From Gammaproteobacteria bacterium (GTDB lineage: Bacteria; Pseudomonadota; Gammaproteobacteria; HTCC5015), in contig JACDDA010000001.1 in assembly GCA_013817245.1 (NCBI GenBank), forward strand, positions 248,001 to 312,000: DNA of 64,000 bases, in the 5' to 3' direction. Both the position numbers and the translations under genes were made by a program. Numbering within the stretch: position 1 is the stretch's first letter; every line of letters starts with the position of its first letter. Below, in pieces: positions 52,012 through 56,574 of the stretch. Below the pieces are notes generated by a model. That model was not told the DNA's origin and did not search any database. It was given only the letters and a program-made list of their open reading frames with translations.

Positions 52012-53469
52012 TTACTCGCTTTTTTTCCAAGCAGGCGCGTTTAAGCGCCGTCTACCATCACTCGACATCATCACATCTTTTTCATCTAAGGCTTCTTTAT
52101 CCCACAGCTGACAGGTTACTTGTTTATGTTTTTGATCTAGGCCTTCGCAATAATTTGTATATTCACATAAACGTACTTGTTGACCAAAACCGGTTTTAAT
52201 TTTAATAAACCAATCAGGATCTGCCATCGCTTGCCGAGCTAAGCCAATGATATCGGCTTGGTTCGTGGCTAATAAATTTTCTGCTTGCGTAAAATTATGA
52301 ATGCCGCCGGCTACTACAATCGGGGTCCTTAAACCCGCGGCGCGCACTGCGTGATGAATCGCTGCGGTCGCTTCCACGTTTCGCCCAAAGGGGCCAAATT
52401 CATCAGAAATATTTTGTGGCATGCATTCATAACCACTAGGACCCGTGTATGGATACGCCGCACTTCCCACTTTAGGTTGTTTAGCATCATCAAATTTTCC
52501 GCCGCGTGATAAAGATAAAAAATCCATACCAGCTTTGGCAAATTCAACCCCGAAATAAATCGCATCTTCAACGTGATTGCCTTGGTCTATAATTTCATCG
52601 CTTAAAAAACGACAGCCTACCGTGTAATTGTTACCAACACGTTCACGAACACGGCGAAATACTTCTAGGGGTAGGCGCGCGCGTTGTTCACGCACACCGC
52701 CATAACCATCTGTGCGCGTGTTTTTTGCTGAAATAAAAGAGGCCATAGTATAAGCATGAGCGTAATGCAGTTCTACGCCATCAAAATTAGCGCGTTGCGC
52801 GCGTTCTGCTGCGCTGGCAAACAAATCTGGCAATACGGTGGGCAACGCCTTGATATGGGGCAATTCAAGATCAGTCACGCGTTCGCGATAACCCATACGC
52901 AAACTTTCTAATTCACGTTCATTTAATATAGTATCCAATGCATCATCTTTAAGACTCGCTAAATGCTCGCGGATTTTTTCTTCTGGCCAATTTTGCGCGC
53001 CGAGTTTTTCACGATGCTCATCGGTTATTGTTAAAAACCGCTGAAAATATTTAGCCACATCGGGACGTCGACGGATGTTTAAGAAATCGATAATTTGAAT
53101 AAATAATTTTGTTTGACCCGCACTCGCGCGCTGCACCGTTTGTGTTAGTTCTTGTAAACCTGCGATAAAACGATCATCACCAATGCGTAACAAAGGGCCA
53201 CTCGGCACATCACGAATACCCGTCGCTTCAATCACAATCGCGCCGGGTTGTCCTTGCGCAAAACGCTCATACCAGGCTAGCACTTCATCAGTGACATACC
53301 CCTCTTCATTGGAACGCCACGGCACCATCGCAGGAATCCACGTGCGTTGCTCAAGACGGGTCGCGCCCACTTGAATAGGCGTAAACAATCGCGAAGCCGC
53401 CGCTTCTTCCCGTGTCGGCCAATATCCGGGCTGGGGATGAAACATAATTTTTTGGGGCGGTTTCCACAT
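52012..53469 (-). CDS. NADH:flavin oxidoreductase, Old Yellow Enzyme family
   Basis: A 485-residue FMN protein made of a single TIM barrel without the FeS/FAD extension of 2,4-dienoyl-CoA reductases. Conserved parts are GVELHYAHAYTMASFISAKN followed by TRTDGYGG (His pair and loop), PIVVAGGI with the phosphate-binding loop and IGLARQAMADPDW. The C-terminus has a Cys cluster (LCEYTNYCEG and TCQLWDK) that could bind metal or an iron-sulfur cluster; a classic CxxCxxxC is not complete. Function probably reduction of an activated alkene. The start is taken from the open frame; upstream Met options are few. Confidence 0.88.
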   Translation of the reverse strand: MWKPPQKIMFHPQPGYWPTREEAAASRLFTPIQVGATRLEQRTWIPAMVPWRSNEEGYVTDEVLAWYERFAQGQPGAIVIEATGIRDVPSGPLLRIGDDRFIAGLQELTQTVQRASAGQTKLFIQIIDFLNIRRRPDVAKYFQRFLTITDEHREKLGAQNWPEEKIREHLASLKDDALDTILNERELESLRMGYRERVTDLELPHIKALPTVLPDLFASAAERAQRANFDGVELHYAHAYTMASFISAKNTRTDGYGGVREQRARLPLEVFRRVRERVGNNYTVGCRFLSDEIIDQGNHVEDAIYFGVEFAKAGMDFLSLSRGGKFDDAKQPKVGSAAYPYTGPSGYECMPQNISDEFGPFGRNVEATAAIHHAVRAAGLRTPIVVAGGIHNFTQAENLLATNQADIIGLARQAMADPDWFIKIKTGFGQQVRLCEYTNYCEGLDQKHKQVTCQLWDKEALDEKDVMMSSDGRRRLNAPAWKKSE

Positions 53470-53700: not shown

Positions 53701-55107
53701 ATGCAAGGACATCGTTGCTCTTTTCACCCCACCGAATATGCTGACTGGGCCTGCCATGAATCTGCGCGTTTTTATTGTAGTAAGTGCATGCCTGCCGCGG
53801 ACTCCGGCGAACCGGCGCGTTGTTTACTCACCGACATTCCTTTAGCCCGACAAGCACATCACAATATCACGCCTTTTTGGAGCAAGATTAATAGCTTTAT
53901 CTTTTATGCATTTAAGCCTAATTGTTTAATCCTAAGCCTTGCGATCACTGCGCTTGTTTTTATTAGTGCAAGCAATAAAACTTTTTTAATATTTTCAATG
54001 CTAATCTCGATGATAGCTTTATCGGCCTATGCTTTCTTAATAATAGATGCCGTTGCGCAAGGTAAAAGCAAAGCGCCTTCATTGTTCGATATTTTTTCGA
54101 TAGACAGTATCGCGTTGCTCGCCAAATATGCTTTTGCGCAAATTATATTAGGCGTAGTCGCCGGCGTGCTGATTGCTTTATTAGGAAAATTTGTTTTATT
54201 AATAACAGTAGTGATGATTGTTTTGTATGCGATTTTTCCCGCAAGCGCTTTGTTATTGGCGACACAAAAAAATCTCTCATCAGCGATCAATCCAGTAGAA
54301 ATTTATTCATTGATTCAAAACATGGGCAGTGGCTATTTAATTTTATACGGTTTAAGCATCGCCTTATTAAGCTTAATTGTGTACACGCCGATCGCGCTTT
54401 TTTCCATAACCGACCCAAGAACCCTATTGGTATCTGTTAGCGCGTCACTCAGTTTAACAACCTGCGCGCTGTCGGCTATGGCGGGTTATGCTATTTACCA
54501 ATATCAATTAGCGTTAGGTTATAGCGCTATAGAAGAAGACACTAAAAAAATCTATAACAAACAATTAAAAAGTCAGCAGTTAATCGCGCGCGCGAATGCC
54601 TATGTAATCGAAGGCCGTTTTGCAGAAGCTATTGAGATGCTGGCAAAAGCGGCCATAGAGCAACCCGATAATTTTGATATTAAACGCCGCACCAATGCTT
54701 TAATGGCGCACGTTCATCATGAAAAGCTAAACGATTATAGTCGTCAATTAATTATCGAGCTCATAGAAAAAAATCAAGTCGCCAGAGCCTGTGATGTTTT
54801 TTTAGATACGATTGCATCTGACAAATTGTTTCACATCGACGACGTCAATGTTTGTTTTGCGCTAATAGAGCCGCTTTACACGCGCGGACATTACAAACCG
54901 GCGATTAACTTAATTGTGCGCTTAGCTAAATTGCAAAGAGACTTTCCAAAACTTGCTGAAGCTTATCTTACGGCCGCACGAATTTATGTAGAACACTGGG
55001 CGCTGCCCGACAAGGCAGAGCCGTACATTAAATATTTATTAAAAACGCCCGGCATTGACGGTGGTATACGCCAAGCCGCCGAACGACTTGAACGCACGCT
55101 GCAATAA
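53701..55107 (+). CDS. B-box-like zinc-binding membrane protein with TPR C-terminus
   Basis: A 468-residue protein I do not recognise as a named family. Residues about 4-45 carry Cys and His at spacings like a B-box zinc finger (CSFHPTEYADWACHESARF then YCSKC). Four or more membrane helices follow (about 75-115, 133-185, 205-230, 240-270). From about 290 to 468 it is soluble and helical with TPR-like repeats (GRFAEAIEMLAKAAIEQPDN). It ends at the base before the stop of the convergent rhomboid gene, and their C-terminal parts share a pattern. AGGA seven bases before the ATG supports the start. Confidence 0.7.
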   Translation: MQGHRCSFHPTEYADWACHESARFYCSKCMPAADSGEPARCLLTDIPLARQAHHNITPFWSKINSFIFYAFKPNCLILSLAITALVFISASNKTFLIFSMLISMIALSAYAFLIIDAVAQGKSKAPSLFDIFSIDSIALLAKYAFAQIILGVVAGVLIALLGKFVLLITVVMIVLYAIFPASALLLATQKNLSSAINPVEIYSLIQNMGSGYLILYGLSIALLSLIVYTPIALFSITDPRTLLVSVSASLSLTTCALSAMAGYAIYQYQLALGYSAIEEDTKKIYNKQLKSQQLIARANAYVIEGRFAEAIEMLAKAAIEQPDNFDIKRRTNALMAHVHHEKLNDYSRQLIIELIEKNQVARACDVFLDTIASDKLFHIDDVNVCFALIEPLYTRGHYKPAINLIVRLAKLQRDFPKLAEAYLTAARIYVEHWALPDKAEPYIKYLLKTPGIDGGIRQAAERLERTLQ

Positions 55108-56574
55108 TTAATTTAAACTGCGCAATAACGCGGCTGCTTGCTCTGCTGATAAGCTTTTTGAAAAGTCGTTAGTTACTCGCTTTAAATACAGCTTAGCCTG
55201 CACGGTGTCACGATTCGCTAAACAGGCTTGACCCATACGTAAAAAAATACTACCTAATTTATCCGCATAACGCGCTTCGGTCTCGTAACGTTTTACTAAG
55301 ATCGCTGCGTCTTCTACACGGCCTTGTTTTATTAAAACATTAATTAACTGAAAATCAGCGGTATCATCAATTGGTTTGCCAACAATACGCTCATAATCCA
55401 TGCGTGCGCGCAATAACATATCGACATCATCTGGATGCGTGGTTTTAAAAGAAAATAATTTTTGTGCAATTTTTCCCAAGGTGTCGGAATTGGGTTCGTT
55501 TTTATACAAATCAAATCCTAAGCGTAGCAAACGAAAATCATTGGGTTTAGTGCGGAATACTGCACGCAATTCATGGCGGGCTTTTTCAAAATCCAAATGT
55601 TCCATTGCTCGATAAATACGATCTAAGGCTTGATGATATTCTTTATCCGGTTCTTGATGCTCGACATAAGCTTCGTCTACTTTTAACCACTGCATACGAC
55701 GCGCCGCGAATACCAAAAGAAAACCTGTCAACAAGCCACCTAAATGTGCAAACCGTGCGACATGATCGGCGCTAGTGAAATATTGATAAAGTTCATAACC
55801 GCCCCAATACAACAACATTAAGGCAGCAGGCGCTTTAAAATATTGATTATAAAAACCTAAAGTAAAAAAGAATTTAATGGGTCGCAAACCATATAGACCT
55901 AAATACATACCCAACAAACCAAACACGGCACCCGAAGCTCCTACATGCGGAACAAGAGAACTGCTTGCTACTGCCCAGGTTACAAGCCAACCAGCAAGTC
56001 CTGTTACATGATACAAACCCAAATACCACCAGCGGCCTAACGCGACTTCTAAAGAAAAACCAAAAATAAACAGAAATACCATATTAAAAAATACATGCCC
56101 CCAATCCGCATGCACATACAGCGCGGTAAAAGCACGCGTAACATTCGCCTGTGCGGGTACAAAACCATAACGTAAAACACTATAGTCGCCATGCAAACGA
56201 TTAAAGGGTATGCGTGCATTTTTCCAAGCTTCAGGGGTGTACTGCTTCCAAAAATACTGATCCACTAAATATTCGCCAAACGCTTTATCTTGCGCAGCCA
56301 ATTGCTGCAGCATGATGGTTTGCATATCAAGATTAGTTTCTTGCGTTATAGCGTCTAATTCAGGGCGTTGGTTATCTTGTAGGTAATCAACATAAACATC
56401 TCGCTCATAAGCGAATAACTTATTTTCCGCATAACTCGTTTGAATTTTTTGGCTCAGCGCAGTGTCGTGTAAAAAACACGCCATAAACACCAGCAAACAC
56501 GTCAACACTAATGCCAAGGTAATCAGAGGCGGACGATGAGAATCTAAAGGTTGTTCAACAGGAATAATTAACAT
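55108..56574 (-). CDS. Rhomboid family intramembrane serine protease with TPR-like C-terminus
   Basis: A 488-residue protein. Membrane helix at about 15-37, then a soluble insert of about 100 residues, then the rhomboid core (about 145-290): HADWGHVFFNMVFLFIFGF, the nucleophile loop HVGASGAVFGLLGMYLG and the catalytic His in VARFAHLGGLLTGF. The C-terminal part (about 300-488) is helical with TPR character (EKARHELRAVFRTKPNDFRL). It cleaves membrane proteins within the bilayer. It abuts the B-box-like gene tail to tail with no base between the two stops; a shared task is possible. Confidence 0.9.
   Translation of the reverse strand: MLIIPVEQPLDSHRPPLITLALVLTCLLVFMACFLHDTALSQKIQTSYAENKLFAYERDVYVDYLQDNQRPELDAITQETNLDMQTIMLQQLAAQDKAFGEYLVDQYFWKQYTPEAWKNARIPFNRLHGDYSVLRYGFVPAQANVTRAFTALYVHADWGHVFFNMVFLFIFGFSLEVALGRWWYLGLYHVTGLAGWLVTWAVASSSLVPHVGASGAVFGLLGMYLGLYGLRPIKFFFTLGFYNQYFKAPAALMLLYWGGYELYQYFTSADHVARFAHLGGLLTGFLLVFAARRMQWLKVDEAYVEHQEPDKEYHQALDRIYRAMEHLDFEKARHELRAVFRTKPNDFRLLRLGFDLYKNEPNSDTLGKIAQKLFSFKTTHPDDVDMLLRARMDYERIVGKPIDDTADFQLINVLIKQGRVEDAAILVKRYETEARYADKLGSIFLRMGQACLANRDTVQAKLYLKRVTNDFSKSLSAEQAAALLRSLN

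Follow-up and report, generated by a model that had tools for sequence, protein, structure and literature searches.

For most bacterial rhomboids, neither a substrate nor a partner is known to us. GlpG combines a six-helix core with a Ser-His dyad. Rhombosortase is a bacterial rhomboid that comparative genomics has paired with other proteins, and the excerpt of PMC3237569 used here describes a many-to-one pairing, the other proteins being marked by a C-terminal signal (GlyGly-CTERM). YqgP (GluP) of Bacillus subtilis has a C-terminal TPR domain, described as extracellular, together with a cytosolic N-terminal domain of 177 residues (1-177), and this TPR-bearing rhomboid can cooperate with FtsH in the quality control of membrane proteins; the excerpt of PMC7231995 used here terms the functions of bacterial rhomboids largely elusive. 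For mycobacterial rhomboids of the Rv0110 type, a table in the excerpted part of PMC2989971 places a B-box motif within the protein, which means that elsewhere a single chain can hold both a finger and a rhomboid. The only rhomboid that we looked at ourselves for such a fusion, from an actinobacterial plasmid (L245), has no finger, and the support for the fusion is the published table.

Here, we describe a rhomboid subfamily that probably has a partner dedicated to it. It was found in the window, i.e. the whole stretch of 64,000 nucleotides that was analysed, in a genome of 2.27 Mb (G000). The rhomboid gene is called R and its neighbour B; among the papers listed by searches of the open-licence PubMed Central literature, none describes the pair. 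The features are as follows.

53701-55107, forward strand: gene B, an open reading frame for 468 amino acids, with a B-box-like N-terminal finger followed by six membrane helices and a C-terminal TPR-type domain
53701-53850, forward strand: B-box-like zinc finger of B (residues 1-50), in which C6, H9, C18, C26, C29 and C41 are kept, C21 is replaced by S and C44 by T
54556-55104, forward strand: C-terminal TPR-type domain of B (residues 286-468), ten helices in the model, with a profile match to the C-terminus of R
55105-55110, no strand assigned: touching stops, the TAA of B followed by TTA (the TAA of R on the reverse strand), read from the sequence
55108-56574, reverse strand: gene R, a 488-residue rhomboid with a long first periplasmic loop and a C-terminal TPR-type domain, based on the open reading frame, PF01694 and the model
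55114-55656, reverse strand: C-terminal TPR-type domain of R (residues 307-487), ten helices in the model, with a profile match to the C-terminus of B
55690-56535, reverse strand: rhomboid core of R (residues about 14-295) with catalytic S214 and H277, based on the GlpG alignment

The coordinates, strands and lengths given in the first-pass annotation are right, and so are the touching convergent stops: the junction reads ...CTGCAA TAA / TTA ATT..., with zero bases between the genes. At 52012-53469, on the strand opposite to B, its other neighbour encodes a 485-residue protein of the NADH:flavin oxidoreductase family (PF00724).

R is a rhomboid by every feature tested, and its sequence predicts an active protease. 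PF01694 scores 89.5 bits (cut-off 22.6), in agreement with the original rhomboid call. S214 and H277 are kept in 59/59 aligned R proteins including that of the window, an alignment in which at least three members (L016, L089, L097) were not seen adjoining B and outside of which L102, L101 and L078 stand. The AlphaFold2 model built from these 59 sequences has a mean pLDDT of 91.8 and matches GlpG with a VIA-align Z of 16.9 (rmsd 3.0, 168 residues). R differs from GlpG in having a helical first loop of ~100 residues, a dedicated neighbour gene and, at the C-terminus, a TPR-type domain of ~180 residues. In the model, this first periplasmic loop (residues 37-130, 56185-56466) takes the form of a helical insert, with E57, W117 and R121 conserved. 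The two long R proteins for which no B was detected, those of G341 (L102, 1465-2916) and G245 (contig C170), belong to one genus; the one that was read, from G341, has neither the catalytic His nor the GASGA motif and looks like a pseudo-rhomboid.

By the membership tests applied, R is neither GlpG, nor rhombosortase, nor YqgP-type. As a GlpG equivalog (TIGR04239) it scores 8.8 bits against a cut-off of 250, and as a rhombosortase (TIGR03902) 19.2 bits against a cut-off of 84; among NCBIfam families, none reaches its cut-off on the B or R protein of the window. R resembles rhombosortase in being a bacterial rhomboid with a pairing seen by comparative genomics, whereas its pairing is with one partner family, encoded by the adjoining gene. 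YqgP and R have the C-terminal TPR domain in common (PMC7231995, excerpt), but the large cytosolic N-terminal domain is absent from R, where the first helix begins at residue 17 and only about 16 residues precede it, and the TPR-type domain of R is probably cytosolic. In addition, a B-type partner does not feature in the excerpted description of YqgP.

B consists of a finger, a membrane part and a TPR-type domain, and no named family reaches its cut-off on the window protein. The AlphaFold2 model, based on an alignment of 67 sequences, has a mean pLDDT of 92.0 and places membrane helices at residues 73-89, 93-119, 134-161, 163-189, 210-233 and 239-267. DUF4013 (PF13197) reaches 16.6 bits on window B (cut-off 26.9) and weakly matches the membrane part in 12/67 members at E<=0.01 (best E 1.7e-4); a scan of the B family gave no match to a protease family. 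Foldseek searches of the PDB with the B and R models yielded nothing below E 0.001. The description of both proteins as membrane proteins with a C-terminal TPR-like region is borne out by the models, both of which have six helices in the membrane and a TPR-type domain of ten helices. TPR chains dominate the structural matches to the C-termini of both proteins, covering residues 284-468 of B and 308-488 of R, and the six-helix part of B is hardly covered by this comparison. Pfam TPR_14 was found at E<=0.01 in 47/67 B and 21/59 R proteins.

The B-box assignment made at first pass is weak on the window protein, for which PF00643 gives 12.3 bits (cut-off 24.1), and good for the family: zf-B_box matches 23/67 members at E<=0.01, the best at 1.5e-6. 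Among the 67 aligned B proteins, all eight finger ligands are present in 43 and at most one in 21. Three are intermediate, namely the window protein (6/8), one cut short where its contig ends and one that has no genuine finger. Both ligands lost in window B presumably belong to one metal site of the cross-brace finger, and for this reason the finger of window B looks caught between the full and the lost state. As 21/67 B proteins lack it, the finger is dispensable to the pair and not an essential part of the module. Unlike in the Rv0110-type rhomboids, for which the excerpted table of PMC2989971 places finger and protease in one protein, the finger here is found on a separate six-helix TPR protein.

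We compared the C-terminal regions of the two proteins in more than one way. BLASTP of B against R gave no C-terminal match (best E 0.35, in the membrane part). The profile alignment of these regions that the first-pass annotation had proposed as a check, built here from 32 B and 29 R sequences, matched end to end at 98.6% probability (E 1.1e-15, 180 columns), and on window columns at 98.5% (E 1.9e-15, 170 columns, 19% identity). Of the landmarks that had been matched by eye, EQPDNFDIKRR/TKPNDFRLLRL and DKAEPYIKYLLK/VQAKLYLKRVTN fall in register, but the second pair, LIEKNQVARACDVF/LIKQGRVEDAAILV, is one hairpin off, as LIKQGRVEDAAILV aligns with LIEPLYTRGHYKPAINLI and not with LIEKNQVARACDVF. 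The C-termini of B and R are each other's best match among the domains tried, end to end, with a profile score of 100.9 compared to 81.0 for B-YbgF (115 columns), 65.5 for R-YbgF, 65.3 for B-BamD and 59.7 for R-BamD. However, the control pair YbgF-BamD scores 100.3, so that B and R are no more alike than two TPR families can be; the likeness does not by itself single out the pair, and its value as pair-specific evidence is weakened. Within 31 genomes (29 with B), the R C-terminal profile found the B partner in seven, as the top non-rhomboid match in 7/7, and the B C-terminal profile found the R partner in nine, in seven of them (the window among these) as the top non-B match. In the remaining genomes of the 31 the C-terminal profiles missed the partner, and other TPR proteins scored in several.

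The linkage of the two genes was examined in several genome sets. A search of 94 relatives with the B protein matched six genomes, all of which (6/6) encode a long rhomboid, and R adjoins B in these six except in G004, where both genes lie at contig ends. Among 369 genomes of the class, a near-full-length R was found in 32, and B is present as well in 30 of these, with E<=1e-40 in 28 and a weaker match in two. With a strong B defined by E<=1e-40 and R counted if full-length, 28 genomes have both, four have R without a strong B, two have a strong B without R and 335 have neither (Fisher p 1.8e-35); weaker B matches in genomes without a long R (G183, G169, G035) were kept out of the strong-B count. 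The four with R and no strong B comprise G010 and G223, which have a weaker B near R, and G341 and G245, in which no B was detected. In the 30 class genomes with both genes, these are neighbours in 27 (23 convergent, four on one strand), lie at contig ends in one and are apart in two.

Named genomes gave a similar account in 62 B loci, counted as loci, with at least three assemblies contributing two each (L178/L179, L182/L184, L223/L234) and at least eight genomes in common with the class set. R adjoins B in 50 of them: 29 are convergent, 20 have R followed by B, mostly with overlapping frames, and one has B followed by R. Of the other 12 loci, three end at B and nine have no R there; R lies elsewhere in the genome for four of these nine, and for five a long R was not found in the genome (L186 and L202, both among the nine, have less than 1.8 kb of contig beyond B). 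In a fresh sample of 398 genomes of the phylum, 16 genomes with B had not been used before, after leaving out G593 as overlapping L195; in 13/16 the distance from B to R is below 1.5 kb, the view of the other three being limited to 1.5 kb. The pair is carried by many gamma- and betaproteobacteria, the named carriers including Cellvibrio, Pseudoteredinibacter, Endozoicomonas, Reinekea, Thalassolituus, Aliikangiella, Thiohalophilus, Accumulibacter and Propionivibrio.

A conserved third gene did not emerge, the best neighbour families being AAA ATPase (7/62), cNMP-binding (7/62) and rhodanese (6/62). The AAA ATPase gene lies upstream of B (L173, L176, L177, L178, L180, L184, L191), in some cases with the rhodanese gene in between, and the gene for the cNMP-binding protein lies beyond R in its seven named loci. 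Single variations on the arrangement were also seen. In one family (L274-L277, from G420, G428, G507 and G424), a small gene for a secreted protein, BON-domain-like by eye, stands between B and R; G237 (L058) has two tandem B genes beside one R, and G038 has apparently two B-R pairs split over contigs.

The first-pass annotation had also suggested a co-occurrence search, and would have given up its proposal in the face of neither profile similarity nor co-occurrence. B and R strongly co-occur and adjoin, and the C-terminal match has an E of about 1e-15, which contradicts that outcome on both counts. Its reasoning, from a common domain in neighbouring proteins to a partner or substrate relation, is partly supported: the relation is backed by linkage and by the matched evolution described below, and the shared domain is the weaker leg, since TPR domains are common.

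In convergent pairs, the median stop-to-stop gap, with overlaps included, gaps derived from coordinates and G010 excluded, is 12 nt for 23 class pairs and 23 nt for 29 named pairs. Convergent neighbours have no common transcript, so the commonest arrangement by itself gives no coupled expression, and intrinsic terminators and promoters around the pair did not stand above shuffled sequence. Where R precedes B, the start of B lies before or within the stop of R in 16/20 loci, and this operon-form overlap of the frames suggests coupled synthesis of R and B.

We also found that the distances within the B and R families are correlated, with coefficients of 0.86 in 19 genomes and of 0.83 in 17 genomes; in the latter set the partial correlation given rpoB is likewise 0.83 (permutation p 0.0002), compared to 0.11 for the control BamD-YbgF given rpoB. 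The mirror-tree controls themselves were weak (BamD-YbgF 0.09, BamD-rpoB -0.05), and some BamD frames used for these trees extended into other sequence and were trimmed only via gap columns. As the rpoB, BamD and YbgF trees agree poorly, the control for species history is weak, and the correlation shows a common history of change or transfer of B and R, not more. A linked pair that is transferred together could show this correlation as well.

Taken together, B and R very probably work as one unit. Our preferred reading, to which we give a probability of about one half, is that the two form one membrane module, with R as the part that cuts and B as a dedicated non-catalytic partner that directs or gates R. 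Here, B would sit beside R in the inner membrane with both TPR-type domains facing the cytosol, and would recruit, present or gate the membrane proteins that R, as an active intramembrane serine protease, would cut; it would act by way of its membrane helices, the TPR-type domain and also, in most lineages, the zinc finger. The predicted cytosolic position of both domains follows from the even number of helices in the models (six each) and the usual rhomboid orientation. A physical complex of B and R and the recruiting or gating role of B are likewise predicted. What has been computed for the pair is its domain anatomy, intact catalytic residues, adjacency through three arrangements, overlapping operon frames and matched evolution. 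A subunit role of B is favoured by the overlapping frames, the long-lived one-to-one partnership, the TPR-type domain that R itself carries and the lack of a protease match in B, while the 9/62 B loci that do not end at B and still have no adjoining R count against the module. More specifically, and more tentatively, with somewhat less than even odds, the pair might form a two-subunit intramembrane protease, in which an as yet unnamed rhomboid subfamily is joined by a zinc-finger six-helix TPR companion through which cytosolic information or substrates reach the active site.

The main rival to this partnership, which we consider unlikely, is that B is the principal substrate of R, cut within one of its membrane helices upon a signal so that the cytosolic finger or the TPR-type domain is set free or destroyed. 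Such a relation would leave the same traces of linkage, co-occurrence and matched evolution, and the TPR-bearing rhomboid YqgP is described in the excerpt of PMC7231995 as cutting a polytopic transporter, MgtE. A simple substrate relation leaves the TPR-type domain of R unexplained, however, and B has six helices with probably cytosolic termini, whereas known rhomboid substrates mostly have one or few membrane helices. The choice between partner and substrate lies beyond what sequence decides. It is rather improbable that B and R serve a common pathway without contact, for example as independent parts of membrane stress response or protein quality control: linkage alone does speak for shared function and not for contact, but the overlapping frames in 16/20 loci and the correlation of 0.83 fit a complex better.

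B as a brake or safety subunit that keeps R inactive until needed appears very unlikely. The R that was read from the genus with R and no B found (G341) has lost its catalytic His, but this is one evolutionary event at most, and a pure brake does not account for the 5/62 B loci in whose genomes a long R was not found. Chance gene order, combined with a C-terminal likeness that is generic to TPR domains, is hardly credible as the explanation of the pair. TPR domains are common and the B-R score of 100.9 equals the 100.3 of YbgF-BamD, as such an accident would have it, but adjacency in 27/30, 50/62 and 13/16 cases, through three arrangements and with outer neighbours that change, contradicts it already.

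Returning to the two-part module, the cooperation of YqgP with FtsH and the B-box of Rv0110-type rhomboids bear on B and R as analogies. R represents a TPR-bearing type of rhomboid that is distinct from GlpG and YqgP, and its partner is fixed by gene order across gamma- and betaproteobacteria, which opens the function of this rhomboid to direct experiment. If the two-subunit reading is true, bacteria would have in this pair their own counterpart to client-directing rhomboid assemblies, one whose built-in metal site has been lost in some lineages.
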